Origin: an uncultured Erythrobacter sp. | GTDB taxonomy: Bacteria > Pseudomonadota > Alphaproteobacteria > Sphingomonadales > Sphingomonadaceae | DNA: 64,000 nt | Reading direction: 5' to 3' | Assembly (NCBI RefSeq): GCF_947499705.1 | Contig: NZ_CANMPJ010000001.1 | Location: forward strand, 531,501-595,500 | In this document: piece after piece, positions 45,845-62,824 of the stretch | Layout: every line of letters starts with the position of its first letter | Numbering within the stretch: position 1 is the stretch's first letter | Translations under genes and position numbers: made by a program | The notes under the pieces: model-generated | What the model was told of the DNA's origin: nothing | Database searches by the model: none | Seen by the model: the letters and a program-made list of their open reading frames with translations, nothing else

Positions 45845-46917
45845 TCTACCTCGACTACCAAGCAACCACTCCGCTCGCACCGGAAGCCCGCGATGCCATG
45901 TTGCGTTGGCTCGATGGGCCGGAGGGGACCGGCTTCGGCAATCCGCACAGCCCGCACCGGATGGGGCGGATGGCGGCGGCGGCGGTCGAGTTGGCGCGTG
46001 ACAGGGTCGCGGCGCTGTTTCCGCCCGGCGGCAAAGTGATTTTCACTGGCGGCGCGACCGAAGCGCTCAATCTGGCGATCCGCGGAACCGGCAGTGAGGG
46101 CTCCGTCTCGGTTTCGGCGATCGAGCATTCGGCGGTTCTGGATACGGCGCAGGCGCTGGGACAGGCTCATGTGCTGAACGTATCGCAAGACGGTCAGTGC
46201 AACACCAGGCAGGACGTGCCCGACGATGTGCGCCTGATCGCCGTTATGCAGGTCAACAATGAGATCGGCACCGTCCAACCGACCATCGACTGGCATCGCA
46301 AGGCAAAGGAAGCGGGCGCTCTTTTCTTGATCGATGCCGTGCAGGCCTATGGCAAGATGCCGGTGACCGAGGCCGACATGATCGCGGTTTCGGCGCACAA
46401 GTTCCACGGCCCCAAAGGCATCGGCGCGCTGTGGGTGCGTGATGGGGTGGAGTTGAACGAAGTTCAGACCGGGGGTGGACAGGAATCGGGCCTGCGCTCC
46501 GGTACGCTGTCTCCCGCGCTGATCGCCGGTTTCGGCGTCGCGGCGCAGGTCGCGGCAGAGCGCATGATGCACGATGCCGAACATGTCGAAGCGCTATGGA
46601 TGCGCGCGCGCGAACTGTTTGCAGATTGGACGCTCAACGGCAGCAGCGATGCGCGCTGGCACGGCAATCTCAACATCCGCCGCGATGGCTTGGATGTGGC
46701 CCGGCTAATGAGCGAATGCCGCAACGTGATGTTTTCGGCGGGCAGCGCCTGCGCCAGCGGCTCAGGCCGCACCAGCCATGTGCTCAAGGCCATTGGGCTG
46801 ACCGACCAGCAAGCCAAGAGCTCGATCCGGCTGGGGTTTGGCCGATACACGACCATGGAAGAACTTGAAAAGGCCGCTGAAACCATCAATGCTGCAGTGC
46901 AAGATCAAGGCCTGTGA
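45841..46917 (+). CDS. Cysteine desulfurase-like aminotransferase, second copy
   Basis: 358 residues. IYLDYQATTPLAPEARDAM, the Schiff-base Lys in SAHKFHGPKGIGALWV, and the loop Cys in SAGSACASGSGRTSHVLKAIGL, all as in NifS/IscS. The ATG at 45841 overlaps the preceding stop, and the frame's upstream extension shadows that gene. The two adjacent desulfurases may form a heteromer or serve different acceptors; the Cys loop here is the longer, more IscS-like one. Confidence 0.92.
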   Translation: MIYLDYQATTPLAPEARDAMLRWLDGPEGTGFGNPHSPHRMGRMAAAAVELARDRVAALFPPGGKVIFTGGATEALNLAIRGTGSEGSVSVSAIEHSAVLDTAQALGQAHVLNVSQDGQCNTRQDVPDDVRLIAVMQVNNEIGTVQPTIDWHRKAKEAGALFLIDAVQAYGKMPVTEADMIAVSAHKFHGPKGIGALWVRDGVELNEVQTGGGQESGLRSGTLSPALIAGFGVAAQVAAERMMHDAEHVEALWMRARELFADWTLNGSSDARWHGNLNIRRDGLDVARLMSECRNVMFSAGSACASGSGRTSHVLKAIGLTDQQAKSSIRLGFGRYTTMEELEKAAETINAAVQDQGL

Positions 46918-48321: not shown

Positions 48322-48476
48322 TGGCAAGTCGGACATGAAAATATCTATAAATCAGCAGGATATGACCAATCTGCCGCTTGGCCGAGGGCTGTGATTGGGG
48401 CTCAAAAGCACGAAATGTGGCAGGAATTGCGACTCGGGTGATTGATCCGCTGGCAGTGCGCCCCATTTGGTTTGGC

Positions 48477-49301
48477 ATGATCTCCGCGCAAGACAGCCTC
48501 ACCCCGCCAGCGAGCGGCCTGCGTGACCGTGTGCGCGGGTGGTTGGAATCCGCCCTGTTCGAGCGGTTCATCATCGCCGTGATCGTCATCAATGCGATCG
48601 GGCTGGGGCTCGAAACTTCGCCTGATGTCATGGCGGCAATCGGCCCCGTGGTAGAGCAGCTGGATCGGATCGCGATCACCATCTTCGTGATCGAGATCGC
48701 ACTGAAACTGTTCGTCTACCGCCTCGGTTTCTTCCGCAACGGCTGGAATGTGTTCGACCTCGCCATTGTCAGCGCGGCGCTGATCCCGGCGGGCGAGCAA
48801 TTCTCGGTCTTGCGTGCCCTGCGCATCTTGCGCGCCCTGCGATTGGTTTCGGTAGTCCCAAGCATGCGCAAGGTGATCGCGGGCTTGTTTCGCGCGATAC
48901 CCAGCATCGGCACGGTGATCATCATGCTGCTTTTGCTGTTCTATATCAGCGCGGTGATGGCGACGAAGCTGTTCGGGGCTGCGTTCCCGGAATGGTTCGG
49001 CAGCCTTGGTGCCTCGCTCTATTCCCTGTTCCAGATCATGACGCTGGAAAGCTGGTCGATGGGCATCGTCCGGCCGGTTATGGAAGAGTACCCCTATGCC
49101 TGGGTGTTCTTCGTGCCGTTCATTCTGCTCACCAGCTTTATAGTGCTGAACCTGTTTATCGGTGTGATCGTCAACGCCATGTCTGAGGCGACCGAAGGTG
49201 AAGCCCATGACGAGCGCGAGATGATCCTGATCGAATTGCGGGGCCTGCGCGACGAGGTGAAGGCACTTCGCGAGCAAGGCGAACAACGCGCTGGTCCGTA
49301 A
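48477..49301 (+). CDS. Voltage-gated sodium channel, NaChBac type
   Basis: 274 residues from the ATG at 48477. It has six transmembrane segments. The S4 voltage sensor has Arg every third residue (RALRILRALRLVSVVPSMRK). The pore loop TLESWSMG matches the sodium-selective filter LESWS of bacterial Nav channels. S6 (FILLTSFIVLNLFIGVIVNAM) is followed by a charged C-terminal coiled coil. It forms a homotetramer in the inner membrane. The open frame extends 33 codons upstream without homology. Confidence 0.92.
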   Translation: MISAQDSLTPPASGLRDRVRGWLESALFERFIIAVIVINAIGLGLETSPDVMAAIGPVVEQLDRIAITIFVIEIALKLFVYRLGFFRNGWNVFDLAIVSAALIPAGEQFSVLRALRILRALRLVSVVPSMRKVIAGLFRAIPSIGTVIIMLLLLFYISAVMATKLFGAAFPEWFGSLGASLYSLFQIMTLESWSMGIVRPVMEEYPYAWVFFVPFILLTSFIVLNLFIGVIVNAMSEATEGEAHDEREMILIELRGLRDEVKALREQGEQRAGP

Positions 49302-50057: not shown

Positions 50058-51338
50058 TTGGCTAGCCCAAACAAGCTTCTTTATCTGAACGCCGTCCGCG
50101 CCTTTGCGCTCGCCCGGTGGCGCGCATGGCGATTGCGCGACAGGGCTGCGATTGACCGTCACCACCGCCGCCAATTAGCGAAGCTTCAGCGACATGCGCT
50201 GGAGAGCTTCCCCTACTATTCCGACTGCGGCGGCCTTCGCTTTCAGGATTGGCCGGTCATCGACAAGGGCGAAATGGTTGCCAATTTTGCCGACCTCAAT
50301 GTCGCGGGCGCGATGGCTGAGGAACTAAGGGACATTCTTGCGGGTGGCGGTGAACGGTTTCGCGGATACCCCATCGGCCATAGCACCGGCACCAGCGGCA
50401 ATCGCGGCTACTACGTGATCAGCGATGCCGAACGGTTCCAGTGGCTCGGCACGATACTCGCCAAGACTTTGCCGGATGCGCTTTGGCGCAAACACAAGGT
50501 CGCGCTGGCTTTGCCGGGGTTGTCAACGCTGTATCGCTCCGCGTCGAGCGGCAGCCGCATCGAACTGGTGTTTTTCGACCTCGCCGACGGAGTGGAAAGC
50601 TGGGCCGATGAATTGAATGCCGCCGCACCCGATACGATTGTCGCACCGCCAAAGGTCCTGCGCTTGCTGGCTGAGCGCGGCCAATTGCCATCGCACAACA
50701 TCTTCAGCGGCGCAGAGGTGCTCGACCCGATTGACCGTGCGGTGATCGAAGAGGCGACAGGGCGGATCGTCCGGCAGATTTATATGGCCACAGAGGGACT
50801 GTTCGCCGTCAGTTGCCCGCACGGCGCGCTGCATCTGGCGGAGGATGTGGTGCATTTCGAGTGGGAACAGCCGGTGCCGGGCAGCGTCTTGCAGACACCT
50901 ATCGTGACCGACTTCACCCGCCGCAGCCAAGCGATGATCCGCTACCGCATGAATGATCTGGTGGAGCTTGATACTTCTCCCTGCACCTGCGGTTCGGCCT
51001 TCGCGAAGCTGCGGCGGATCGAAGGCAGGGCGGACGACATCTTTCTGCTTGAGACGAGCAATGGAGAGGTCGCGACGGTGACGCCTGACGTGGTGCGCAA
51101 TGCAATCGTCGACGCCCATGCGGCTGTCCGCGATTTCCGCGCCAGGCAGGTGGCACCGTCGCGCATCGAATTGACGCTGGAGGCGCATTTGCCTCCCGAT
51201 ATTGACGAGATGGTTCGGGCCAAATTGATGGAGCGACTCAGCCCGTTTGGCGCGCAGCCGGATATCGTCATCGCCCGCGGTCTAGATGTTCCCTTCGACC
51301 GGAAACTCAGGCGCGTGACACGCGAGATTGAAGGATAG
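50058..51338 (+). CDS. CoF-synthetase/PaaK-like adenylate-forming enzyme
   Basis: 426 residues resembling the F390-synthetase-related (CapK/PaaK) branch of ANL enzymes, which activate carboxylic acids as AMP esters. Visible features are the Ser/Thr/Gly-rich P-loop GHSTGTSGNRG near 114-124, PPKVLRLLAE, FSGAEVLDP, the aromatic/Glu motif QIYMATEGLFA, YRMNDLVEL, and a C-terminal Lys in FDRKLRRVTREI. It starts with a TTG at 50058; no in-frame ATG is near. It converges on the Rieske gene at the end of the operon and probably serves the same pathway. Confidence 0.85.
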   Translation: MASPNKLLYLNAVRAFALARWRAWRLRDRAAIDRHHRRQLAKLQRHALESFPYYSDCGGLRFQDWPVIDKGEMVANFADLNVAGAMAEELRDILAGGGERFRGYPIGHSTGTSGNRGYYVISDAERFQWLGTILAKTLPDALWRKHKVALALPGLSTLYRSASSGSRIELVFFDLADGVESWADELNAAAPDTIVAPPKVLRLLAERGQLPSHNIFSGAEVLDPIDRAVIEEATGRIVRQIYMATEGLFAVSCPHGALHLAEDVVHFEWEQPVPGSVLQTPIVTDFTRRSQAMIRYRMNDLVELDTSPCTCGSAFAKLRRIEGRADDIFLLETSNGEVATVTPDVVRNAIVDAHAAVRDFRARQVAPSRIELTLEAHLPPDIDEMVRAKLMERLSPFGAQPDIVIARGLDVPFDRKLRRVTREIEG

Positions 51339-51370
51339 CGGTCCGGTCAGCACGCTTCGAGCGCGCCCAG

Positions 51371-52396
51371 CTAAAGATCCATCTCGGTCCGGCGCGTCTG
51401 CCCCGGTGGTGGCGGTTTGCCGCGCAGGAATGCGTCGATGAATGGCCTGACCACATCGAGCGGACCAATGCGCTTGCGGCGAGAATTGAACGCCGCGTCA
51501 TTGTCCGCGACTGCTTCGAGGATCGACTTGTCCTGCGCATGCACCAGCTTGATCCAGGGATAGAGAACCCAGAACTTGATCCACGCCCACCATCGCGGAC
51601 CCGGTAGGCCGACAAGGCCGTACCCTTCGACCTGGCCATTGCGCGTCGGAGTCATGTAACCCGTCATGACGAAGTTGACGCTCTTCGGGCCGTGGAATTC
51701 GACCTCTGCGACGTTTGGCGTGACAAAACGGCCGATGGATAGCGCCCTGTCCTTCTCATTCATGATCTTCGAGACGACCCCGCCCGCCTGACCTTCGCCG
51801 AAATAGCTCGCGACTAGGCCGTGTTCGTTGGTGGTCACCTCCACCGTCGTGCGATTGTTGTTCTTGACCGATCTGACGAGCTGACGGTGGACGAAAATGG
51901 TATGGGTCGGATCGAGAAAGTTTTCGAGCGCGTCAGGTAAGGGAGCGGTCACACGGCCTTTCACCGCGCGCCAGAAGGAGACCTCGGAAAAGCCCTCGTT
52001 GAGATACGGTCTCTCGCTAGTCTCGCCAATGCCGACGAAGACCAGGCCCCGCTTGACTGAGACTTTCAGCGTTTTCGCCGAGACCCTGGGAGGTGCATCG
52101 GTCAGGCACGGCATCGCGCAAAGCTCTCCCGCCCCGTTGAATTGCCAGCCGTGATAGGGGCACTCGATCCTGCCATCACGAATGCGCCCTTGAGACAGGG
52201 GCGCGCCGCGATGCGGGCAGCGGTCAACCAACGCGCGCACCTCGCCTTGCTCCAGATAGAGCGCGATCGGCATACCGTTGACCCAGCGCCGTTTGGGCTT
52301 CTTGGCCGAAAGCTCGTGCGCGCGCGCGACGACGTACCAGCCATCCAGCGCGTCCGCCTCCGACCATTCGACAACGTCAGTCTGATGCATGGTCAT
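51371..52396 (-). CDS. Rieske non-heme iron oxygenase
   Basis: 341 residues. The Rieske [2Fe-2S] motif is C60-P-H62-RG and C79-P-Y-H82. The C-terminal catalytic domain has the mononuclear-iron region NFLDPTHTIFVHRQ with two His, and a later acidic DNDAAF. This is the PaO/vanillate-demethylase-like class of oxygenase acting on a lipid-like or aromatic substrate; an electron donor is not in the operon. The ATG at 52396 overlaps the stop of the GNAT-like gene (ATGA). It is the last gene of the operon. Confidence 0.9.
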   Translation of the reverse strand: MTMHQTDVVEWSEADALDGWYVVARAHELSAKKPKRRWVNGMPIALYLEQGEVRALVDRCPHRGAPLSQGRIRDGRIECPYHGWQFNGAGELCAMPCLTDAPPRVSAKTLKVSVKRGLVFVGIGETSERPYLNEGFSEVSFWRAVKGRVTAPLPDALENFLDPTHTIFVHRQLVRSVKNNNRTTVEVTTNEHGLVASYFGEGQAGGVVSKIMNEKDRALSIGRFVTPNVAEVEFHGPKSVNFVMTGYMTPTRNGQVEGYGLVGLPGPRWWAWIKFWVLYPWIKLVHAQDKSILEAVADNDAAFNSRRKRIGPLDVVRPFIDAFLRGKPPPPGQTRRTEMDL

Positions 52397-53535
52397 AGCT
52401 GGTATCTCCTCATGATCGGGACAGCGATGCGATTCAGAATCAGGGCGACACCTTTGAGTATCCAGCGGCGATATGCCGGAAGGTGATCGATGAAATAGGC
52501 CGAGTATTCGGTCACCGGCCTCGCGCCGCGCAGCCGCTTGAAATGCGATGCGCCCGCCGAGCCATTGAGGCGCAGGCCCGCTTGCAGCGCCGCATCGCAG
52601 AACAGCCATGAGGCGATGCGGTACAGCCCGTTCGATTGGGGCTGCGCGGTGTCATAACCGACAACCGGGGGAGTAAGAATGCCGCCTCGCTCCAGCGACC
52701 CTGCGACCGCTTGAATTGTCCCATCCGCGTCGCGCGCGCAGCGATACCGGATCAGCTTGTTTTCGCAGCTGAGCTGTATCCACCTCGCCGAGAATACCGG
52801 GTTCAGTTCGGAATATTTGCCGACATAGAGCATGTAATACAGCTCAGCGATCCGGGCCGCATCGGCATCGCTCATCGTGTCGATGTCTTCCACACTCAGC
52901 CCGCTGCGTTTGAGCTTTCGCAAGTCCTCTGTCGCGTTGTTGCGAGGCAACCATTGGCTTTGAAGATCATCCGTTACCCAGATTTGCCGGCTCGGGAACA
53001 GGGTCCAACCGTCACCGCGCGCTTGGTTCAATAGCTGCGGGCACGACCAGTGATCCAGAGACCTGACGGCGATGATGTGATCGGGGTAATTCGCAAGCAG
53101 CAGGGCGCGAATGGCTGGGATATCATCCCCGTTCCAGTCGCCGTGCAGGTTGGTCGAAAGCAACCAATTGTCGACATGCACAATCCGGTTGATCCGGGCG
53201 ATCCGCAGCAGCCCGGCAGCAAGCCAGATCAATGGCAGCATCGCCCATTTTACGAGCCGTAGGCCGATGATCTCCAACTCCTGTCGCGCGTACAGAATGT
53301 ATGCACTGTATGGCTCGCAGACATAGCTTTTGCCTTGCACACCATCGTTCACCGTAACGGGAAACACACGGCCACCAGACTGCAGCACCAGCAGTTTGGT
53401 CTCCACGTTGGGAATGAGGTCGGCAACGTTGCTGCTGGCGAGCATCCGCAGATAGGCCGCCGCCTTGGGCGAACCAGGACCTAGTTCCGAAAGCTTGTGC
53501 GGTTCTTCTGCGGGATCGAACAATTCAGGGGTCAT
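52393..53535 (-). CDS. GNAT/FemAB-like acyltransferase, tentative
   Basis: 380 residues from the ATG at 53535, which overlaps the ATP-grasp stop (ATGA). No clear catalytic motif is visible, but the middle and end (SDADAARIAELYYMLYVGKYS, SARWIQLSC, IASWLFCDAALQAGLRLNGSAG, HFKRLRGA) resemble GNAT-fold acyltransferases. A basic, hydrophobic stretch at about 95-120 could bind the membrane. It probably moves an acyl or aminoacyl group in the same pathway. The assignment is weak. Confidence 0.65.
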   Translation of the reverse strand: MTPELFDPAEEPHKLSELGPGSPKAAAYLRMLASSNVADLIPNVETKLLVLQSGGRVFPVTVNDGVQGKSYVCEPYSAYILYARQELEIIGLRLVKWAMLPLIWLAAGLLRIARINRIVHVDNWLLSTNLHGDWNGDDIPAIRALLLANYPDHIIAVRSLDHWSCPQLLNQARGDGWTLFPSRQIWVTDDLQSQWLPRNNATEDLRKLKRSGLSVEDIDTMSDADAARIAELYYMLYVGKYSELNPVFSARWIQLSCENKLIRYRCARDADGTIQAVAGSLERGGILTPPVVGYDTAQPQSNGLYRIASWLFCDAALQAGLRLNGSAGASHFKRLRGARPVTEYSAYFIDHLPAYRRWILKGVALILNRIAVPIMRRYQL

Positions 53536-54683
53536 CCAATCGGTCCCCCGTTCCATTCGATGTCGGAGGTGGTGGCCGCTGCCGGGCTCAGCGAATTGCG
53601 CAGCGCCAACAGAGTGAATCCCGCCGCATCGGCCAGACATGCCAGCGTGACGAGGGGATTGCCTTCGCGGTCGATCACATCCCGCGACGCGCGCCAGCCT
53701 GATCGCAACTGCTTCAGCTGGCCGTTCTTGATCGCCATCGGCACCCCAATCAGGGCCATGGCGGGTCCCATGTGCCTCAGCGTACCAAGCGGTGGGGCGT
53801 CGCACGCTCGCTCGCCCAAAATGGCGCTCGCCATCGACGCATCGCCATCGAAAAGATGCAGTCCGCTAACGGCGCGCGGATTGCATTCGATCAGATAGGT
53901 CTCACCCGAATGATCGCAGATCGCATCGAATGAGAGATGCCCCGACAAGCCGGTCGCAGCCGCGATCTTTGTGCTCGCGTCATAGAGTGCAGGGCTCTCC
54001 ACACTCTCCAGTTGGAATGCGGCGCTGTTGCCCGAACGCCATCGCGGGCGATAGGCAGCGAAGGCCGTGACCTTGCCCCCATGCACGGCGCTCCAGGAGC
54101 AAAGTTCATCGCCTTCAATGCGTTGCTGCGCGACCCAGCGACAATCTTCGTCCGGCTGGATTTTGAGAACCTGCTTGGCGGTTGGGCCGATTAAGGTGTG
54201 CGTTGCGAAACGGGAATACTCCGGTTTGAAAACCAGTTCTTCCGGCGCAGCAAATTCAGTGGCGGATATGGGCCGGTCGAGCACCTGCGTTTCCGGCACC
54301 AAGAGTCCGGCTTCCTGCGCCAGCTGCACGAATTCCGCCTTTGAATGCAGTTGCCGCAAAGTCTCTGGCGGCGGCGCGAACACCGCATTCTCAAACCCAT
54401 CCCGCTTGGCAGCTTCGGCCAGCCAGAAAACCTCTTCGCAGGTGGGAATGATCCGCGTCGCGCTGGTCTTGTCGAGCAGCCGCAAAAGCTCGCGGCGGAA
54501 CTCGCCGAATGCTGTGCGGGGCGGCGGCAAGCGGTGCACGGGGAATTCCGGGCGCAGCGCGCGGGCGACCCAGGCGTGCGCGCAGTCGGCGAAATGCACC
54601 TCGCACCCGTACGCCCGCAGGCTTCGCGCAATGTCGTGGGCGACAGGTGCCCTCGCGCCGGTGACGATGACTGTCTCGCCCAA
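53532..54683 (-). CDS. ATP-grasp carboxylate ligase
   Basis: 383 residues. An N-terminal Rossmann-like pre-grasp domain (VIVTGARAPVAHDIARSL), the ATP-grasp fold with a phosphate-binding Lys region (EELVFKPEYSRFA), WVAQQRIEGDELCSWSAVHGG, and the metal-binding end YLIECNPRAVSGLHLF. Such enzymes join a carboxylate to an amine or thiol through an acyl phosphate. It starts with a TTG at 54683, 3 bases after the MBL gene's stop, so translation likely depends on coupling. It probably forms an amide in the pathway. Confidence 0.85.
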   Translation of the reverse strand: MGETVIVTGARAPVAHDIARSLRAYGCEVHFADCAHAWVARALRPEFPVHRLPPPRTAFGEFRRELLRLLDKTSATRIIPTCEEVFWLAEAAKRDGFENAVFAPPPETLRQLHSKAEFVQLAQEAGLLVPETQVLDRPISATEFAAPEELVFKPEYSRFATHTLIGPTAKQVLKIQPDEDCRWVAQQRIEGDELCSWSAVHGGKVTAFAAYRPRWRSGNSAAFQLESVESPALYDASTKIAAATGLSGHLSFDAICDHSGETYLIECNPRAVSGLHLFDGDASMASAILGERACDAPPLGTLRHMGPAMALIGVPMAIKNGQLKQLRSGWRASRDVIDREGNPLVTLACLADAAGFTLLALRNSLSPAAATTSDIEWNGGPIG

Positions 54684-54686
54684 CGC

Positions 54687-55526
54687 TCAGTCCTCGGTCG
54701 CTTCCGCAGCTCGAATTTGGCAATGGCTGGGGCTCAACCGGATTTCGGGATTGCGTAGATGCAGCTGGTGCAGTTTTTCCAGCGTGCTCCGCGTCGCGCC
54801 GACTTTGCCCAGCATGGCGCTTGAGATAGCGGGTGGCGGCATATTGCGCTCGATCGCGTCGAGCGACCACGCAGCGTCGGCCACCATGAAGTGATATCCA
54901 TACGCTGCGTCGCGAATGAGCAAGCCCCAATGGCCCGGACAATGGCCGGGCAAATCAATTGCCAATAGGGAGCCATCGCCAAGGATGTCCGCGCCGTCCT
55001 CGAACGGAGCGAGGTCCGATGGCAATGAAACTAGCGGTTTCTCTTCAAAAAACTGCGCCCGGCTCGCGAAATCGGCGGGCAGCAGGGCTGGGAGAATGCC
55101 TCTGCGGGTGCTTTGCAGCCTTCCGCTGCGCTGCGCATCGGCCAGACCGGCTTTGGCGCAATGGATGACCGCGTTGGGGAAGGCATGCGTCCCGGCCATA
55201 TGGTCGGCATGAAAGTGCGAAAGGACGAGATGCTGAATGTCGGCGGGATCGATTCCCCTTGCGCGGCACTGGCTTGCGGCGTCTCTCCCGTCCTCCAGTT
55301 CGACCGGGGTGGCCCAGCGATAGAACCGCTCGGGAAATGGCTCGGTCGCGGTCATGAACGCCGGGTCATATCCGGTGTCGAACAGGATCGCTCCCTCGCT
55401 GGGATGTTGCAGCAGAAAGGCGAGGGCGGGGTAGTCGACCGGTCGCCAGGTGCCACCCTTTATGGTCATGGCCTGCGGGTGCCGGCATTGCCCGGTGTGC
55501 AATATGTCGAGCTTCACGTCAGGCAC
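54687..55526 (-). CDS. Metallo-beta-lactamase-fold hydrolase
   Basis: 279 residues from a GTG at 55526 that overlaps the reductase stop by 8 bases; the frame extends to an ATG at 55598. The metal motif is H104-F-H106-A-D108-H109 (SHFHADH), with a further Asp/His in VADAAW and PGHCPGHWG. It resembles lactonase/N-acyl-homoserine-lactonase-like and thioesterase members. It may release or hydrolyse an acyl or lactone intermediate. It is the third gene of the operon. Confidence 0.87.
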   Translation of the reverse strand: MPDVKLDILHTGQCRHPQAMTIKGGTWRPVDYPALAFLLQHPSEGAILFDTGYDPAFMTATEPFPERFYRWATPVELEDGRDAASQCRARGIDPADIQHLVLSHFHADHMAGTHAFPNAVIHCAKAGLADAQRSGRLQSTRRGILPALLPADFASRAQFFEEKPLVSLPSDLAPFEDGADILGDGSLLAIDLPGHCPGHWGLLIRDAAYGYHFMVADAAWSLDAIERNMPPPAISSAMLGKVGATRSTLEKLHQLHLRNPEIRLSPSHCQIRAAEATED

Positions 55527-56511
55527 TGCGCATCTCCGCCAAAGCCCAATCCACTGCCTCCAACGGGGAGAACCGGGCACGCCAATTGAGCTTTTCATGG
55601 GCCGCGGTCAGATCGAATGTCTGGCTCCACCCGAGCACCATGGCGCTGTAGCGCGTCAATCGCGGCTCCTTGCGAGAAGGTGTCAGGCGCGCCGCCCATT
55701 CCATCATGCGAGCAGCGCCGATGGCGAACATGCCGGGTATCGCGACCACTTTGAGCGGTTTGTCCAAACGGGCGAACACATGCCGCGCCAGATCGGCGAG
55801 AGGGATGGGCGTTCCGCCCGATATGTTGAACGCCTGCCCGCTGACGTTTTCGGCCTGCGCTTCGGCAGCCATAAACGCCTCTGCTGTGTCTCTCGCATCG
55901 GTCGGCTCGATCAGCGCCTTGCCTCCTCGCGGCAGAGGTAGAACCCCTTTGTTACCGGCCTGCAAGAGGCGCGGCAGCAGGGCCGTGTCATACGGGCTGA
56001 TGATCGCTCGCGGGCGCAAGGCGACCGTTGCGAAACCGTCCTCTGCCGCAGCCAAAACCATTTGTTCGGCCTGATACTTGGTCGCTGCATAGCTGTTTGC
56101 AAAACTGCTTGGGAGAGGCGACTTTTCAGTCAGCCCAAACTGATCGACAGCCCGTGTGTAGATCGATGGCGTGGAGGCAAAGATGAAGCGCTGACACCCA
56201 GCGTCCTTTGCTGCTTTGAGCAATCGCTCGGTTGCGACGACATTGGCGTCGACAAAGTCCTGATGGCGGCCCCACGGGCTCGACAGTGCGGCGAGGTGAA
56301 ACACCGTTTCTACGCCTCCGCACAACCCAGTCAGATCGGCGCGCGCAAGGTCGGCAGGCTCGAAAGACAAACCCGCATTGGTGAGCTCTTGCCCGATCGC
56401 TGCATTGCGGCCGGTCGCGACTACATCGCGCCCTTGCGCGTGCAGCATTGGAGCAAGGATCCGTCCCAGCCCGCCGGTCGCGCCGGTCACCAGGACACGC
56501 CGCTTCACCAT
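55519..56511 (-). CDS. OleD-like NAD(P)-dependent epimerase/dehydratase-family reductase
   Basis: 330 residues, extended SDR. NAD(P) loop TGATGGLG (9-16), active-site STPS (113-116) and Y141-xxx-K145 (YAATK). The segment WGRHQDFVDANVVATERLL then FASTPSI..., YAATKYQAEQMVLA and ATVALRPRAI closely follows the pattern of OleD, the 2-alkyl-3-ketoacid reductase of olefin biosynthesis. It is coupled to the ketosynthase gene by a 7-base overlap. Its probable role is reduction of a beta-keto product of that ketosynthase. Confidence 0.9.
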   Translation of the reverse strand: MVKRRVLVTGATGGLGRILAPMLHAQGRDVVATGRNAAIGQELTNAGLSFEPADLARADLTGLCGGVETVFHLAALSSPWGRHQDFVDANVVATERLLKAAKDAGCQRFIFASTPSIYTRAVDQFGLTEKSPLPSSFANSYAATKYQAEQMVLAAAEDGFATVALRPRAIISPYDTALLPRLLQAGNKGVLPLPRGGKALIEPTDARDTAEAFMAAEAQAENVSGQAFNISGGTPIPLADLARHVFARLDKPLKVVAIPGMFAIGAARMMEWAARLTPSRKEPRLTRYSAMVLGWSQTFDLTAAHEKLNWRARFSPLEAVDWALAEMRSA

Positions 56512-57500
56512 CGGATAACCGACCCGCCCAGCGAGACACCCGCCGAAGTGCCGATCAGGAGCGTCTGCTCACCCGGCGTCAGCCGCTCATCCATGCGGGC
56601 GCGGTGCAATGCAAACGGCATGCTGGTGGCAATCTGGTTGCCGATATTGGCGAATATATCGACCGTTTTGCGATGCCCGTCTGCGAGGCATCTCTTGAGA
56701 TGCTCCAGCGCCGCTGCGCTCGCCTGGTGAGGGACGACCAAAGACAGGCCTTCGACACTGGTACCCGCCTTGCCCAGCAATTCCTGAAGGAAGGTGGGGA
56801 AGCGGCGGCTGGTCGCGCGGAACACTTCCGGACCGTCCATCTGAAACTTTGCGCGGGCAAGGAAATCCTCGAGATCGTCGCTGGGGCGTAGCCGGGTTCC
56901 CCCGACTTCGAGCTTGCAGGCCTCCGACGCGTCGCCATAGCTGCGAAAGCTGTGGGCGATCCGGTGATGCGGGCCTTCCGCCTCAAGCGCAAACGCGGCA
57001 GCGCCATCGCCGAACAGCACCGATGCCTCCGGTTCGGAAAAGTCGAGCGCCGCAGACGCGATGTCTGCGCTGACGACAAGCGCTCGGCGCCATTCGCCGA
57101 GTGCGAACCCGGCCAATGCGCGATCGAACGCCTGCAGGAATGACAGACAGGTTGCGTTGACGTCGAAACAGGTGATCCCGCTATCGCCCAGTCCAAGCCG
57201 CCGCTGAATGAGCAGTGATGTGCCGGGAATAGGCTGCTCCATTACTCCGCAGGCTCCGATGATTACATCGATGGACGAAGGGTCCCAACCTGCTTCGTCC
57301 AGCGCCTGCTGTGCGGCCACCGCGCCCATGTAGGAACTGGTCTCGTCCTGATCAGCCCAGTGCCGCTTGACGACGCCAAAGCGTTCGGCGGTTGCGCCAG
57401 CTGCCTGACCCGTCAATTCATCGAGTTCGGATGCCGAGACTTCGCGGCGCGGCAAATATGTGCCGCTGCCCGCTATACTGAAACTTCGCGTTTCATCCAT
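56505..57500 (-). CDS. Ketoacyl synthase III-family enzyme (FabH/OleA type)
   Basis: 331 residues, thiolase-fold condensing enzyme. Catalytic triad C118 (NATCLSF), H258 (VVPHQAS) and N288 (NIGNQIATS). The frame is open 21 codons upstream, but the ATG at 57500 starts at the usual position. FabH-like enzymes outside fatty-acid primer synthesis make beta-keto acids, ketones or quinolones; the adjacent OleD-like gene suggests an OleA-like Claisen condensation. It is the first gene of the operon, with the TetR-type gene divergent. The substrate is unknown. Confidence 0.9.
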   Translation of the reverse strand: MDETRSFSIAGSGTYLPRREVSASELDELTGQAAGATAERFGVVKRHWADQDETSSYMGAVAAQQALDEAGWDPSSIDVIIGACGVMEQPIPGTSLLIQRRLGLGDSGITCFDVNATCLSFLQAFDRALAGFALGEWRRALVVSADIASAALDFSEPEASVLFGDGAAAFALEAEGPHHRIAHSFRSYGDASEACKLEVGGTRLRPSDDLEDFLARAKFQMDGPEVFRATSRRFPTFLQELLGKAGTSVEGLSLVVPHQASAAALEHLKRCLADGHRKTVDIFANIGNQIATSMPFALHRARMDERLTPGEQTLLIGTSAGVSLGGSVIRW

Positions 57501-57571
57501 GTTCGCCACTCCCAAAACTGGAAATGCACAATATCCGAATCGGGATTGCGCATCGTGTGTCAAGGCGATAA

Positions 57572-57605
57572 TGAACAGTGTTCAATTAAAAGTAAACACT
57601 GTTCA
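57572..57605. promoter_or_regulatory. Two palindromic sites, probable TetR operators
   Basis: TGAACAGTGTTCA (57572-57584) and TAAACACTGTTCA (57593-57605) are near-perfect palindromes of the same core with centres 21 bases (two turns) apart. They lie between the divergent ketosynthase operon and the tetR-type gene, and only 19 bases before the latter's ATG, so the regulator would control both transcripts. Confidence 0.65.
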
Positions 57606-57623
57606 ATTTAGGTGTATTCGAGC

Positions 57624-58202
57624 ATGGGACGTAGATCAGACCACAGCAGCGCCGAATTGCGCGAAATTATCATCTCCGAAGCGCACCGCCAAATCAGCGA
57701 GGTCGGATTTGCCCGCTTTTCAGCCCGCGAAGTGGCGCGCCGGATCGGCTATTCGATTGGAACGATCTACAATGTCTTCGGCTCTTACGACCACCTGATG
57801 CTGGCCATAAATGGCCGCACGCTCGACATGTGGAGGAGCGCGCTCGAGACCCGCCTGGCCAATGCGGAAGAGGACAGGTTGCAGGCCGCCGTTGAAGCCT
57901 ATTTCGATTTCGCGCTGCAGAACCGCCACGCCTGGACCGCAATCTACGATTTTCGCTTGCCCGATGATGCTGAAGTGCCGGACGAATACAGCGACAGGGT
58001 CCGTTCGATCATGGATGTGGTCGCGCAGCTGCTGACCGAGATCCTGCCGCAGGAGCGAGCATCCGAAGCCCAGCAGCTATCCGGCTCGCTTTTGGCAATT
58101 GTTCACGGGCATTGCTTCTTCATGCTGAGCGGGACGTTCCGGGTCTTGGGTGAGGCAGATCCGCTAAACACCTGCATGCAGCGCGTCCGGACACTGATTT
58201 AG
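57624..58202 (+). CDS. TetR/AcrR-family transcriptional regulator
   Basis: 192 residues from the ATG at 57624 (a GTG at 57612 also opens the frame). The TetR N-terminal helix-turn-helix spans about 12-55 (GFARFSAREVARRIGYSIGTIYNVFGSYDHL). The C-terminal half is a helical ligand-binding domain of the WHG type (about 78-185). It is divergent from the ketosynthase operon and behind two palindromic sites, so it is a likely repressor of that operon responding to a pathway-related compound. Confidence 0.9.
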   Translation: MGRRSDHSSAELREIIISEAHRQISEVGFARFSAREVARRIGYSIGTIYNVFGSYDHLMLAINGRTLDMWRSALETRLANAEEDRLQAAVEAYFDFALQNRHAWTAIYDFRLPDDAEVPDEYSDRVRSIMDVVAQLLTEILPQERASEAQQLSGSLLAIVHGHCFFMLSGTFRVLGEADPLNTCMQRVRTLI

Positions 58203-58334
58203 GCCGCGTCAATTGGCGCCAAACGGCCGCGTCATGGCCAGCTTCGGTGTTGGACAAACGGTCCATATTGCCCGACCGAGGTGCTTTACCCCCATACCAC
58301 ACCTTGCTATCCCGCCGGAAACGGAGGGACACCA

Positions 58335-59234
58335 ATGCTCGAGCTACAGAACGTCACCCATGTCTATGGCAACGGCACACGTGCCTTGAACGACGTCACT
58401 CTGACGATCCCCAAGGGGATGTTCGGCCTGCTCGGCCCGAATGGTGCAGGCAAGAGCACTTTGATGCGCACCGTTGCAACGCTGCAGACGCCGACTGAAG
58501 GTTCGATCAAGTTCGGCGATATCGACATTCTCGCAGAGCCTGAGAAGCTGCGCGAAACGCTCGGCTATCTGCCGCAGGACTTTGGCGTTTATCCGCGTGT
58601 TTCTGCCTATGACATGCTCGATCACATGGCGGTTCTGAAGGGCGTCGCGTCCTCTTCCGAACGCAAGGATACGGTCGAGACCTTGCTCGCCCAGACCAAC
58701 CTGTGGGACGTGCGCAAGAAGGCGATTGCAGGTTTTTCCGGCGGCATGCGGCAACGCTTTGGCATAGCGCAGGCGTTGATAGGCAATCCGCAGCTCATCA
58801 TCGTCGATGAACCGACCGCAGGCCTGGATCCCGAAGAACGCAACCGTTTCCTCAACCTCCTTGCTGAAATCGGTGAGAACGTTGTGGTCATTCTCTCCAC
58901 CCACATCGTGGAAGACGTGTCAGACCTGTGTCCGAAAATGGCGGTCATCGTGCAAGGGGAGATCAAGCTGGAAGGCGCGCCAAAATCCTTGATAGAACTG
59001 GCCCGCGATACCGTCTGGGCGAAGACCATCGAGCGGGCCGATCTCGACCGCGTTCGCGAGACGCATGAGGTTATCTCGACGCGCCTTTTCGCAGGGCAAA
59101 CCATCGTGCACGTCCTGTCGGACACCGACCCGGGAGACGGTTTTGAAAGCGTCGATGGCGGGCTTGAGGATGTCTATTTCTCAACCCTCGCGCAGTCGCG
59201 CCGCCAGACGCCCTCCGCTGCCGCAGCGGCGTAA
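58335..59234 (+). CDS. ABC transporter ATP-binding protein
   Basis: 299 residues from the ATG at 58335 (GGAGGG site upstream). Walker A GPNGAGKST, Q-loop LPQDFG, signature FSGGMRQR, Walker B LIIVDEPTAGLDPEE, H-loop STHIVED. The C-terminal about 90 residues are an extra region seen in ABC-2 exporters. It is followed 11 bases later by the permease/M1 fusion gene, so the two form a pair. A role in export is inferred from the ABC-2 type. Confidence 0.95.
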   Translation: MLELQNVTHVYGNGTRALNDVTLTIPKGMFGLLGPNGAGKSTLMRTVATLQTPTEGSIKFGDIDILAEPEKLRETLGYLPQDFGVYPRVSAYDMLDHMAVLKGVASSSERKDTVETLLAQTNLWDVRKKAIAGFSGGMRQRFGIAQALIGNPQLIIVDEPTAGLDPEERNRFLNLLAEIGENVVVILSTHIVEDVSDLCPKMAVIVQGEIKLEGAPKSLIELARDTVWAKTIERADLDRVRETHEVISTRLFAGQTIVHVLSDTDPGDGFESVDGGLEDVYFSTLAQSRRQTPSAAAAA

Positions 59235-59245
59235 GGAGAGCGATC

Positions 59246-62200
59246 ATGTTCGGTAAGATCACCGCATTCGAACTGCGCTACCAGCTGCGCAATCCCGTTT
59301 TCTGGGTCGCGGCCGTCATCTTCTTCCTGCTGACCTTCGGGGCGGCAACCAGCGACGATATTCAGATCGGCAGCGGCGGCAATATAAACGCTAACAGCCC
59401 GGTTGCGATCATCCAGACTCATCTGGTGCTTACGCTGTTCTTCATGTTTGTGTCGACCGCCTTTGTAGCGAATGTGATCGTGCGTGATGATGAAAGCGGC
59501 TTCGGGCCAATGGTCCGATCGACTCAGGTCCGAAAATTCGACTATCTGATAGGCCGCTTCACCGGCGCATTTCTGGCAGCAGCGCTGGCCTTTGCGACCG
59601 TACCGCTCGCAATCTGGCTCGGTTCGCTGATGCCATGGGTCGATCCTGAGACGATCGGTCCGAACAAGCTATCATACTACGCCAGCGCATATTTCCTGTT
59701 CGCGATGCCCGGCATGTTCATGGTCTCGGCGCTGTTCTTTGCGGTCGCGACCATGACCCGTTCGATGATGTACACCTATGTGGCCGTGGTGGTTTTCCTC
59801 GTGCTGTGGACGGTGCTGATCGCGACTGTCCAAAGCCGGCCCGATCTTCAGGACACTGCCGCATTGTTCGAGCCTTTCGGGCTTGGTGCGCTGGCCAATG
59901 CCACGCAGTATTGGACCGCCGCGGAATCCAACACGCAATTGCCCGCGTTCGAAGGCGGCATTCTTGCCAACCGGATAATCTGGACCGGTTTTGCGCTTGC
60001 CATGCTTGGCGTCGCCTATTGGCGTTTCAGCTTCGCGGAAAAGGGGCTGTCCAAGCGCAAGCTACGCAAACAGGCCAAGAAACAAGAAAAGCTTGCCAAG
60101 GTCGCGCCGCGCACGGTTGAGACCCTACCCGCACTGCAACCGGACAAGAGCGCCATGGCGCGCCTGATCACCCGGACCCGGTTCGAAGTCGCTCAGGTTG
60201 TGAAGCACCCCGCGTTTTTCGTGCTGATCCTGATTGGCCTGTTCAACACCACGGGCGCGCTGTTCCTCGGCAATGATCTTTACGGCACGCCCAGCCGTCC
60301 GCTGACCTTTACCGTGATTCCCATCTTGCAGGGTGGTTTCAGTATCATCCCGGTCATCATCGCGATCTATTACGCAGGCGAACTGGTCTGGCGCGACCGG
60401 GATCGCAAGATGCACGAATTGATCGATTCCACCTCGGTTCCGGGTTGGAGTTATATGGTGCCGAAGACGATCGCCGTGGCGGTTGTGCTGTTCACCGCGA
60501 TCCTCGCCAGCGTCGTCTCGGCCATGTTCGTTCAAGCGATCCGCGGTGTGACACCGGAGTTCGGTAAGTTCTTCGAATGGTATCTGCTGCCGCTGTCGGT
60601 CGACATGCTGATCCTCGCGATCTTGGCTGTCTTTGTTCAGGCGCTCAGCCCGAACAAGTTTATCGGCTGGGGCATCATGGTGATCTACATCGTGGCCACT
60701 ATTGTACTGTCCAATCTCGGCTTCCAGCATCCGCTCTATCTTTACGGATCTACCGGAGGGAATCCGGTTTCCGACATCAATGGCAATGACGTTGGTAACG
60801 CGCTGGGCTGGGGACTCCGGCTCTATTGGGGTGCCGTCGCGCTTGTGCTTGCGGTTCTTGCGCATCTGCTCTGGCGGCGCGGAGCCGATGCAGCGCTGAT
60901 GCCGCGTCTCAAGCGTATGCCTGCAGGATTGAAATCGTCCTCCGGCCTAGTGTTAGGCGTTGGCCTGCTGACCGCAGTCGCCAGCGGAGGGTATCTGTTC
61001 AATCAGATGAATAGGGTCGAGCAATATCGTACCTCCGATGATGGGAATGCTCAGCTCGCCGAGTACGAGAAGAAATACCTTCAATACGAAACGCTCGTCC
61101 AACCAACTGTTACTGAGGTCGACCTCACAGTCGATCTGTATCCGCAGGAGACTCGGATGGAGGCGAGGGGCCGCTATGCGATCCTCAACGACACGGACGA
61201 AGCGATCGAGGTGCTACATGTGCGCCTGCCCGATCCGAATGCCGAAATTCTCGACATCCAGGTGGGCGGGGCGGCGCTCGAAACCAATGATGATGAGTTC
61301 AAATACCGCATCTACCGGTTCGATGAACCGCTCGCGGCTGGCGCATCGACTGAACTGACATTCGAGACGCGGCGCTGGCAGCGCGGTATCCGGGCGCGGA
61401 ACAATGACACGCGCCTCGTGAAGAATGGCACCTTCCTCAACAATTCGGAGTTCGCGCCGCAGATCGGAATGAACCGGTCAGGCCTGTTGCAGGACCGCTC
61501 AACCCGCCGGGAATACGACTTGCCAGCCGAGCTGCGTCCTGCGGCCCTGGGAGACGAAGCGTCACGGCAGCGCAACTATGTCGGGGCCGATTGGGTGACC
61601 GCCGATATCACGATCACGACCGATGCCGGGCAGACGCCAATCGCGCCGGGTGTTCGTGTGTCCGACGAGGTTGAAGGAGACCGGCGAACCGCGCGGTTCG
61701 TGTCGGAAAACCCGATCCTCTCGTTTTTCTCGATCCAGTCCGCTGACTATGAAATCGCCACTCGCGATGTCGATGGCGTCGAGCTGCAAGTGTATTACCA
61801 CGCTGCGCATGACACCAACGTCGACCGGATGCTGGAAGGGCTGGAAAAGTCGCTCGCTTATTACCGCGCGAATTTTGGCCCGTACCAGTTCCCGCACGCA
61901 CGTATCATCGAATTCCCTGGCTATGATAGTTTTGCGCAGGCCTTTGCCGGGACCATGCCCTATTCGGAGAGCATCGGCTTCGTCGCTGACTATGCCGATG
62001 AAGGCGATATCGATGCGGTGACCTATGTCGTGGCGCACGAAGTCGCGCACCAATATTGGGCGCACCAACTGATCAGCGCCGATCAACAGGGCGGCACGAT
62101 CATGGTTGAGACCATGGCCCAATATTCCGCGATGATGGTGATGAAGGAGATTTATGGGGAAGACCAAATGCGGCGCTTCCTCAAATATGAGCTCGACAAT

Positions 62201-62824
62201 TACCTCTCGGCTCGCGGCGGTGAAGTCATCGAAGAACTGCCGCTCGTGAAGGTCGAAAACCAGGGCTACATCCACTACCGCAAAGGCGCAGTGGTGATGT
62301 ACCTGCTGCAGGATCGGCTGGGTGAGGAGCGCGTCAATGTGATGCTGTCTGAACTGCTCGACCGTTACCGTTTCAAGGGCCCTCCTTACGCGATCTCGAC
62401 AGATCTGGTGGAAGGGTTCGAAAGCCTCGCTCGTAATGATGAAGAGCGGCAGTTGGTTGAAGATCTGCTGCGCAAGATCACACTCTACGACCTCAAAGTG
62501 GACGAGGCGGAAACCAGCGAATTGCCCGACGGGACATGGGAAACCGTGATGACGATCGAGGCGACCAAGTTCTATGCCGATGGCGAGGGCGCCGAGACCG
62601 AAGCACCGTTTTCGAACCAGATCGAAGTGGGGGCCTTCACGGCCCGTCCAGGGCTGGGAGCCTTCGACAATGCCAACGTGCTGATGATGGAGCGCCGGGC
62701 AATCGAAAGCGGCAAGCAGGAAGTCCGGATCGTGACCGAAGAGCAGCCGAGCTATGTGGGGGTCGATCCATATAACAAATACGTTGATCGCAATTCGGAC
62801 GATAACGTCTTTGAGCTTGGGTGA
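59246..62824 (+). CDS. ABC-2 permease fused to M1-family metallopeptidase
   Basis: 1192 residues. Residues 1-about 570 hold two sets of six or so transmembrane segments of the ABC-2 type, with a charged Lys-rich linker at about 265-290. Residues about 620-1190 are an M1-like peptidase: zinc motif H931-E932-x2-H935 (VAHEVAHQYWAH) and the third ligand E955 in VETMAQYSAMM. This fusion is a known but poorly understood family. The peptidase region lies in the periplasm or cytoplasm depending on the last helix. It probably handles peptides moved by its paired ATPase. Confidence 0.9.
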   Translation: MFGKITAFELRYQLRNPVFWVAAVIFFLLTFGAATSDDIQIGSGGNINANSPVAIIQTHLVLTLFFMFVSTAFVANVIVRDDESGFGPMVRSTQVRKFDYLIGRFTGAFLAAALAFATVPLAIWLGSLMPWVDPETIGPNKLSYYASAYFLFAMPGMFMVSALFFAVATMTRSMMYTYVAVVVFLVLWTVLIATVQSRPDLQDTAALFEPFGLGALANATQYWTAAESNTQLPAFEGGILANRIIWTGFALAMLGVAYWRFSFAEKGLSKRKLRKQAKKQEKLAKVAPRTVETLPALQPDKSAMARLITRTRFEVAQVVKHPAFFVLILIGLFNTTGALFLGNDLYGTPSRPLTFTVIPILQGGFSIIPVIIAIYYAGELVWRDRDRKMHELIDSTSVPGWSYMVPKTIAVAVVLFTAILASVVSAMFVQAIRGVTPEFGKFFEWYLLPLSVDMLILAILAVFVQALSPNKFIGWGIMVIYIVATIVLSNLGFQHPLYLYGSTGGNPVSDINGNDVGNALGWGLRLYWGAVALVLAVLAHLLWRRGADAALMPRLKRMPAGLKSSSGLVLGVGLLTAVASGGYLFNQMNRVEQYRTSDDGNAQLAEYEKKYLQYETLVQPTVTEVDLTVDLYPQETRMEARGRYAILNDTDEAIEVLHVRLPDPNAEILDIQVGGAALETNDDEFKYRIYRFDEPLAAGASTELTFETRRWQRGIRARNNDTRLVKNGTFLNNSEFAPQIGMNRSGLLQDRSTRREYDLPAELRPAALGDEASRQRNYVGADWVTADITITTDAGQTPIAPGVRVSDEVEGDRRTARFVSENPILSFFSIQSADYEIATRDVDGVELQVYYHAAHDTNVDRMLEGLEKSLAYYRANFGPYQFPHARIIEFPGYDSFAQAFAGTMPYSESIGFVADYADEGDIDAVTYVVAHEVAHQYWAHQLISADQQGGTIMVETMAQYSAMMVMKEIYGEDQMRRFLKYELDNYLSARGGEVIEELPLVKVENQGYIHYRKGAVVMYLLQDRLGEERVNVMLSELLDRYRFKGPPYAISTDLVEGFESLARNDEERQLVEDLLRKITLYDLKVDEAETSELPDGTWETVMTIEATKFYADGEGAETEAPFSNQIEVGAFTARPGLGAFDNANVLMMERRAIESGKQEVRIVTEEQPSYVGVDPYNKYVDRNSDDNVFELG

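Follow-up and report, generated by a model that had tools for sequence, protein, structure and literature searches.

The Pseudomonas quinolone signal (PQS) pathway has an adenylating enzyme, a ketosynthase III (KS) and a protein of the metallo-beta-lactamase (MBL) fold, as does the locus described here, and the OleABCD enzymes form the head-to-head hydrocarbon or beta-lactone pathway. Among individual KSs, MxnB condenses two activated beta-ketoacyl chains, according to an excerpt of PMC5724707, and OleA and PpyS depend on a Glu whose place is taken in MxnB and CorB by the hydrophobic V94 (excerpt of PMC4578411). Here, we analyse a cluster of eight genes in a 64,000-nucleotide stretch of DNA (hereafter the window) from an uncultured Erythrobacter sp. 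(contig NZ_CANMPJ010000001.1). Comparison with related loci indicates that this cluster encodes an uncharacterised modular pathway, scattered yet widely distributed, whose product is most likely a lipid that can bear different polar heads.

Results

A four-gene core with exchangeable neighbours

On the minus strand of the window, the genes encoding the KS (56505..57500), an OleD-like extended short-chain dehydrogenase/reductase (SDR; 55519..56511) and an MBL-fold hydrolase (Lactamase_B; 54687..55526) overlap by 7 and 8 bases. The last of these lies 3 bases from the gene for an ATP-grasp ligase (53532..54683), which is followed, with 4-base overlaps at both junctions, by the genes for a double-GNAT-fold protein (52393..53535) and a Rieske non-haem iron oxygenase (PF00355; 51371..52396). 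A plus-strand gene with a TTG start (50058..51338), convergent with the Rieske gene and 32 bases from it, encodes an adenylate-forming enzyme that is F390-synthetase-related and PaaK-like (hereafter the adenylating enzyme). The initial annotation had described six overlapping or nearly touching minus-strand genes as one coupled operon with an acyl-metabolism theme. The coordinates reproduce its four overlaps and its 3-base gap, the NCBIfam and Pfam scans agree with its family assignments except that the GNAT-like protein itself has no match in either, and both the operon and the theme are supported. The gene set is not a fixed one, however: the core consists of the KS, SDR, MBL and adenylating-enzyme genes, the last of which sits outside the operon in the window, while the ATP-grasp, GNAT-fold and Rieske genes are exchangeable.

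This division emerged from a comparison of related loci. A KS scan of named genomes gave at least 545 relatives among at least 588 pattern matches, and the best 80 were kept; to these were added 11 loci found via the adenylating enzyme (L051-L061), one found via the KS (L153) and 13 of 25 plasmid records, also found via the KS. With 15 loci having less than 7 kb below the KS, the duplicate L133 (the same as L058) and L157 (pBASL58) left out, the tally comprised 89 loci including the window, each extending 7 kb or more below the KS. The adenylating enzyme itself had matches in 17 of 296 and 53 of 349 genomes, from which five loci besides the window and six others were examined (genome G310 being in both sets); the remaining matches, outside the examined loci, were mostly weak.

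The results showed that the core genes are co-located rather than scattered separately, the outcome that would have refuted the initial annotation: the SDR, MBL and adenylating-enzyme genes all lie near the KS gene in 83 of the 89 loci. Because the presence of the adenylating enzyme is given in the 11 loci found through it, the fair count omits these and the window, and here the quartet is together in 71 of 77. Relatives with the same core in many genomes rule out a locus-specific oddity. A plain FabH duplicate was set aside, since the KSs form a discrete group that is uncommon (at E <= 1e-75, present in 9 of 299 genomes of the phylum) and tied to the SDR, MBL protein and adenylating enzyme. 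In two Asticcacaulis loci (L090:3913-9194 and L097:9995-15192), the genes for the KS, adenylating enzyme, ATP-grasp, GNAT and Rieske proteins are contiguous, and on Pseudomonas megaplasmids (L168:9004-13314 and L157) divergent KS, SDR and MBL genes occur with small unknown open reading frames (ORFs) between them.

The core was also found on two Bacillota plasmids, from Paenibacillus urinalis and a Pontibacillus, as well as in Escherichia coli, where a version is present in 672 of 5,426 complete genomes (~12%), 671 of them with at least 80% of it. The E. coli version consists of seven genes, KS-SDR-MBL-F390-PAP2-hydroxylase-desaturase (L156:8968-15849, L162:4001-10882), and both records examined have it beside narGHJI and purU; in the chromosome examined, it is placed between narI and tRNA-Tyr/purU and bears generic annotations only.

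Around this core, different genes take turns. The window type (ATP-grasp, GNAT and Rieske) occurs in 25 of the 89 loci, ATP-grasp with Rieske in 23, ATP-grasp alone in 5 and ATP-grasp with GNAT in 1; a sulfotransferase type accounts for 15, and PAP2 with a fatty acid (FA) hydroxylase and FA desaturase for 4. Glycosyltransferases (GTs) appear as GT21 with GT28 (4 loci), UDPGT (1) and GT4 with PAP2 (1), and DUF3419, with or without GNAT or Rieske, in another 4. The names of these module families derive from scans of at most a few members each, with the rest placed by similarity to them. The modules exclude one another: 58 loci carry ATP-grasp or DUF3419 and 25 another head-type enzyme (sulfotransferase, glycosyltransferase or PAP2), with both in none and neither in 6. 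The Rieske gene follows the same division, being found in 50 of the 58 ATP-grasp or DUF3419 loci and in none of the 31 others; that of L075 lies just outside the counted range. Swaps are seen in unrelated groups, namely Rhodobacterales, Xanthomonas/Pandoraea, enterobacteria/Burkholderia, Legionella quateirensis and Rhizobium.

Known PAP2, FA hydroxylase, FA desaturase and DUF3419 members act on lipids or acyl chains, and GT21 is the family that includes the ceramide glucosyltransferases. The best NCBIfam match of the cluster GT21 protein is the hopanoid enzyme HpnI and that of the enterobacterial FA hydroxylase is OlsE, both under cut-off. DUF3419, to which bacterial BtaA presumably belongs, is absent from the window; it occupies the ATP-grasp position in L064, L068 and L075, and is also present in L172. 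The KS of L064 is 67% identical to the window KS and belongs to the same KS subclade. A PDB sequence search with the DUF3419 protein gave no matches. In an excerpt of PMC10685587, a putative betaine lipid synthase is annotated with this Pfam name. On a plasmid of Paracoccus sp. MA (L158:16313-18366), genes for phosphatidylserine decarboxylase, PssA and a methyltransferase stand 3-5 kb beyond a sulfotransferase-type cluster.

Since head-group enzymes swap around the quartet, the quartet itself would supply a lipid backbone, and the mutual exclusion of the modules may be explained by one backbone acceptor that takes different heads. A small acyl or amide metabolite, as proposed initially, is therefore less favoured than a lipid with a polar head, the exchangeable neighbours being mostly head-group and acyl-chain enzymes.

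The ketosynthase

Against NCBIfam, the best matches were PRK07204 for the KS (320 bits, cut-off 402), OleD for the SDR (179 bits, cut-off 580) and PRK06849 for the ATP-grasp protein (252 bits, cut-off 406). As these scores are under the cut-offs, the three proteins are, judging from their sequences, relatives rather than members of the respective families. The adenylating enzyme passes TIGR02304 (286 bits, cut-off 251.9), as the sole protein of the window cluster over any NCBIfam cut-off.

The closest solved structures of the KS are MxnB (4v2p) and CorB (4yuc). A profile search against the PDB gave these two 285 and 276 bits, with a FabH next at 242, and a single-sequence search with the window KS gave 185 and 181 bits, with the next at 135. 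The window KS has NATCLSF where MxnB has NASCLSF, and its catalytic triad (C118, H258 and N288) is kept in 100 of 100 aligned rows; here and below, the rows include the window and one duplicate pair, and some other tallied positions vary. The column matching OleA E117 and PpyS E105, located by manual count on the MxnB alignment with an excerpt of PMC4578411, holds I in 88, L in 11 and M in 1 of the 100 rows (I91 in the window). The KS thus shares with MxnB and CorB a hydrophobic residue at this position, and an OleA-type reaction appears unlikely because I, L or M replaces the Glu in every row. An MxnB-type (chain-joining) or a malonyl-type reaction may apply. In a KS tree, the cluster KSs together with MxnB and CorB split from FabH (support 97/86), with a long-branch OleA-like row on the same side and the inner forks open.

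These data bear on the possibility that the cluster is a variant of the OleABCD pathway. The four core activities do parallel those of that pathway, the KS corresponding to OleA, the reductase to OleD, the adenylating enzyme to OleC and the hydrolase to OleB, and OleD is the nearest NCBIfam family of the SDR. But the absence of the OleA Glu from all 100 aligned KS rows speaks against it, as does PRK09258, which gives the window KS 84 bits; a Xanthomonas protein that we take to be OleA passes the same model at 475 bits. Moreover, the hydrolase has the MBL fold and the ligase belongs to TIGR02304, neither an OleB alpha/beta hydrolase nor an OleC-type ligase being present at the window locus, and the head-group enzymes would be left unexplained. 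We consequently reject this variant as highly improbable. The resemblance to MxnB and CorB has its bounds too: those enzymes join chains from large polyketide synthase (PKS) and nonribosomal peptide synthetase lines into pyrones (excerpt of PMC5724707), whereas the window cluster has no PKS and its KS is accompanied by a reductase, a hydrolase and an adenylating enzyme.

The other core enzymes

The remaining core proteins also keep their catalytic residues. The catalytic Y, K and S of the SDR are kept in 93 of 93 rows (two short rows excluded by length), the MBL metal ligands (HxHxDH plus H, D and H) in 92 of 92, and E, D, K and one R of the adenylating enzyme in 86 of 86. The retention of catalytic residues throughout the relatives indicates that the set is more than a chance assembly. 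The SDR is probably a beta-keto reductase. The MBL protein, whose closest solved relatives are N-acylhomoserine lactonases, is presumably a thioesterase or lactonase. The adenylating enzyme has weak PDB relatives among PaaK-like ligases, including AjiA1 and phenylacetate-CoA ligase.

Such relatives could also belong to a PQS- or pyrone-like route, leading to a small secondary metabolite or a signal that diffuses, in which the adenylating enzyme would prime an acyl or aryl acid, the KS extend or join it, the MBL protein serve as thioesterase and the other enzymes decorate the product. Besides the lactonase-like MBL protein and the PaaK-like ligases, PQS KS III structures (3h76, presumably PqsD, and 6esz, PqsC) are found among the distant solved relatives of the KS, and a TetR switch, as in the window, is usual for signal and secondary-metabolite loci. 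Unlike the PQS system, the window locus has a single KS III, an SDR and head-group modules, its adenylating enzyme falls in TIGR02304, and the PqsA-E set is not found there; to our knowledge, an SDR, an ATP-grasp protein and a Rieske enzyme have no place in the PQS pathway. The nearest KSs do make pyrone antibiotics (excerpt of PMC5724707), but the swapped FA desaturase, FA hydroxylase, PAP2, GT21 and betaine-lipid-synthase family members fit a membrane lipid better, and a signal or small secondary metabolite is in our judgement an unlikely product.

The probable amino-acid module of the window

The AlphaFold model of the ATP-grasp protein (predicted local distance difference test, pLDDT, 94.8) shows a carboxylate-ligase fold like that of GAR synthetase, PurK, PylC and L-amino acid ligase; such a predicted fold by itself leaves the substrate unspecified. 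For the GNAT-fold protein, Acetyltransf_6 is matched by 5 of 18 aligned family members, and the family profile gave chance matches only against PDB sequences. Its model (pLDDT 94.3) has a double-GNAT fold, with an aminoacyl-tRNA-dependent peptide synthase as the top structural match (Z 17.4, 3.2 A, 257 residues), followed by FemX and MprF (MprF/L-PGS, Z 15.7). The FemX, FemA, MprF and peptide-synthase rows span Z 17.4-13.7 over 246-282 residues, at 9-18% identity. The protein therefore looks, by its predicted fold, more like a FemX/MprF (or A-PGS) aminoacyl transferase than a plain acyl transferase. Thus, of the initial assignment as a GNAT-like enzyme of acyl transfer, the GNAT fold stands, while plain acyl transfer would give way to aminoacyl transfer. 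MprF has a membrane part; the window protein has none. A distant relative without the core was seen in genome G264 (L062:15842-16963), beside ABC-type, FAD monooxygenase-like and 2,617-residue ORFs.

In the Rieske protein, all seven Fe and FeS ligand positions are kept in 50 of 50 rows (two short rows excluded by length), and its solved relatives are SxtDIOX, dicamba demethylase and SxtT; by ligands and relatives, it is an oxygenase.

An amino-acid module of this kind could also serve an aminolipid with one chain, resembling the ornithine lipids, for which the KS and SDR would give a special 3-hydroxyacyl chain and the ATP-grasp enzyme would join an amino acid to it by an amide. The ATP-grasp and FemX/MprF-fold proteins of the window, together with the OlsE-like hydroxylase of the enterobacterial version, are compatible with this proposal. 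It is nevertheless a doubtful one, as the glycosyl, sulfate and PAP2 modules require a different acceptor and OlsB and OlsA were unmatched among the eight window proteins in the NCBIfam and Pfam scans, for which the presence of such models was not checked.

Regulation and flanking genes

At the head of the operon, where the initial annotation had placed a TetR regulator, a TetR-family gene (57624..58202, plus strand; TetR_N and TetR_C_33; ATG start, with a GTG at 57612 also possible) diverges from the KS gene across 123 bases, and its relatives are divergent to the KS gene in other genera as well. This gap contains an operator-like palindrome, TGAACAGTGTTCA (57572..57584), and 21 bases on a second copy, TAAACACTGTTCA (57593..57605), with one mismatch to the pattern. 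Exact copies of the pattern TGAACnnnGTTCA occur in 15 of 31 TetR-KS gaps, and 24 of the 31 contain it with one mismatch or none, sulfotransferase-type loci included. In 500 shuffles of these gaps, the means were 0.002 (exact) and 0.142 (at most one mismatch) and the maxima 1 and 3, the control being generous in that the shuffles were mononucleotide, the pattern was taken from the window and the 31 gaps include one duplicate pair. The placement of the regulator is thus confirmed and its putative operator conserved. Judging from these sites, one regulator type seems common to loci that differ in their heads, which would be expected were the core product what matters. One more exact TGAACnnnGTTCA palindrome, at 46454-46466, lies within a class-V aminotransferase gene and is probably due to chance.

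The outer flanks look unrelated to the cluster, with an ion channel gene at 48378-49301 on one side. On the other (58281-62824), an ABC ATPase gene is followed by one for a 1,192-residue protein that fuses ABC-2 permease segments with an M1 peptidase domain.

Discussion

We consider, with a probability of roughly 55%, that this locus represents one form of a modular pathway to a lipid with swappable polar heads, the window type being amino-acid-headed. In the proposed scheme, the KS would couple an enzyme-bound acyl chain to a second thioester through a C-C bond. This thioester could be malonyl or, as for MxnB, a beta-ketoacyl chain, which would result in two tails. The SDR would reduce the keto group, the MBL protein would cleave a thioester or a lactone, and the adenylating enzyme would activate a carboxylate, by which an acyl part would be joined or recharged. 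The core would yield a hydrophobic backbone bearing an acceptor group. In the window, the ATP-grasp enzyme would attach an amino acid to it, the FemX/MprF-fold protein would then add an aminoacyl or acyl group to that amino acid, and the Rieske enzyme would hydroxylate the product, which is perhaps two-tailed. The TetR protein would repress the operon via the TGAACnnnGTTCA sites.

Several observations weigh against this proposal. The operon has no acyl-carrier protein, and sulfotransferases and glycosyltransferases decorate small molecules too. The core varies, with L090 and L097 having no SDR and MBL genes and L122, L124, L153 and L168 no adenylating-enzyme gene; 6 of the 89 loci carry none of the tested module genes, and in the Pseudomonas plasmid pBASL58 (L157:9001-18934) the genes are dispersed over 10 kb. 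The counts are not independent, since the loci are related and most of them come from the 80 closest KS matches, and the tree does not settle whether the cluster KSs belong with MxnB and CorB or with OleA. As for the GNAT-fold protein, CoA-using double GNATs such as mycothiol synthase (Z 13.6) and VipF (Z 14.5, 8.0 A) appear further down among its structural matches, so that the donor need not be an aminoacyl-tRNA. Its family is not cluster-bound, since one of its two matches in 289 class genomes (that in G264) lies elsewhere, without the core, suggesting that the family also serves another pathway.

In the open-access literature, we found no paper on the cluster and, in line with the initial annotation, no characterised pathway with the exact gene set; a literature search on long-chain diols in Caulobacteraceae likewise returned no papers.

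A broader and more tentative idea, which we hold to be possible though less probable than the modular pathway itself, is that the product of the quartet is a two-tailed membrane-lipid backbone of a third kind, next to diacylglycerol and ceramide. In this backbone, a C-C bond would link two acyl chains and reduction would leave an alcohol, and its heads (amino-acid, homoserine-ether, sulfate, sugar and phosphate) would be swapped by module across at least two phyla; in E. coli, some 12% of the complete genomes would carry the genes for a hydroxylated and desaturated form with a phosphate head. If the lipid reading is right, a lipid class whose heads change by gene swap would have been overlooked in common bacteria, including E. 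coli. It would also provide a natural enzyme set for one backbone and a clear target for lipidomics, as well as a testable role for a family that NCBI names by resemblance alone (F390 synthetase-related).

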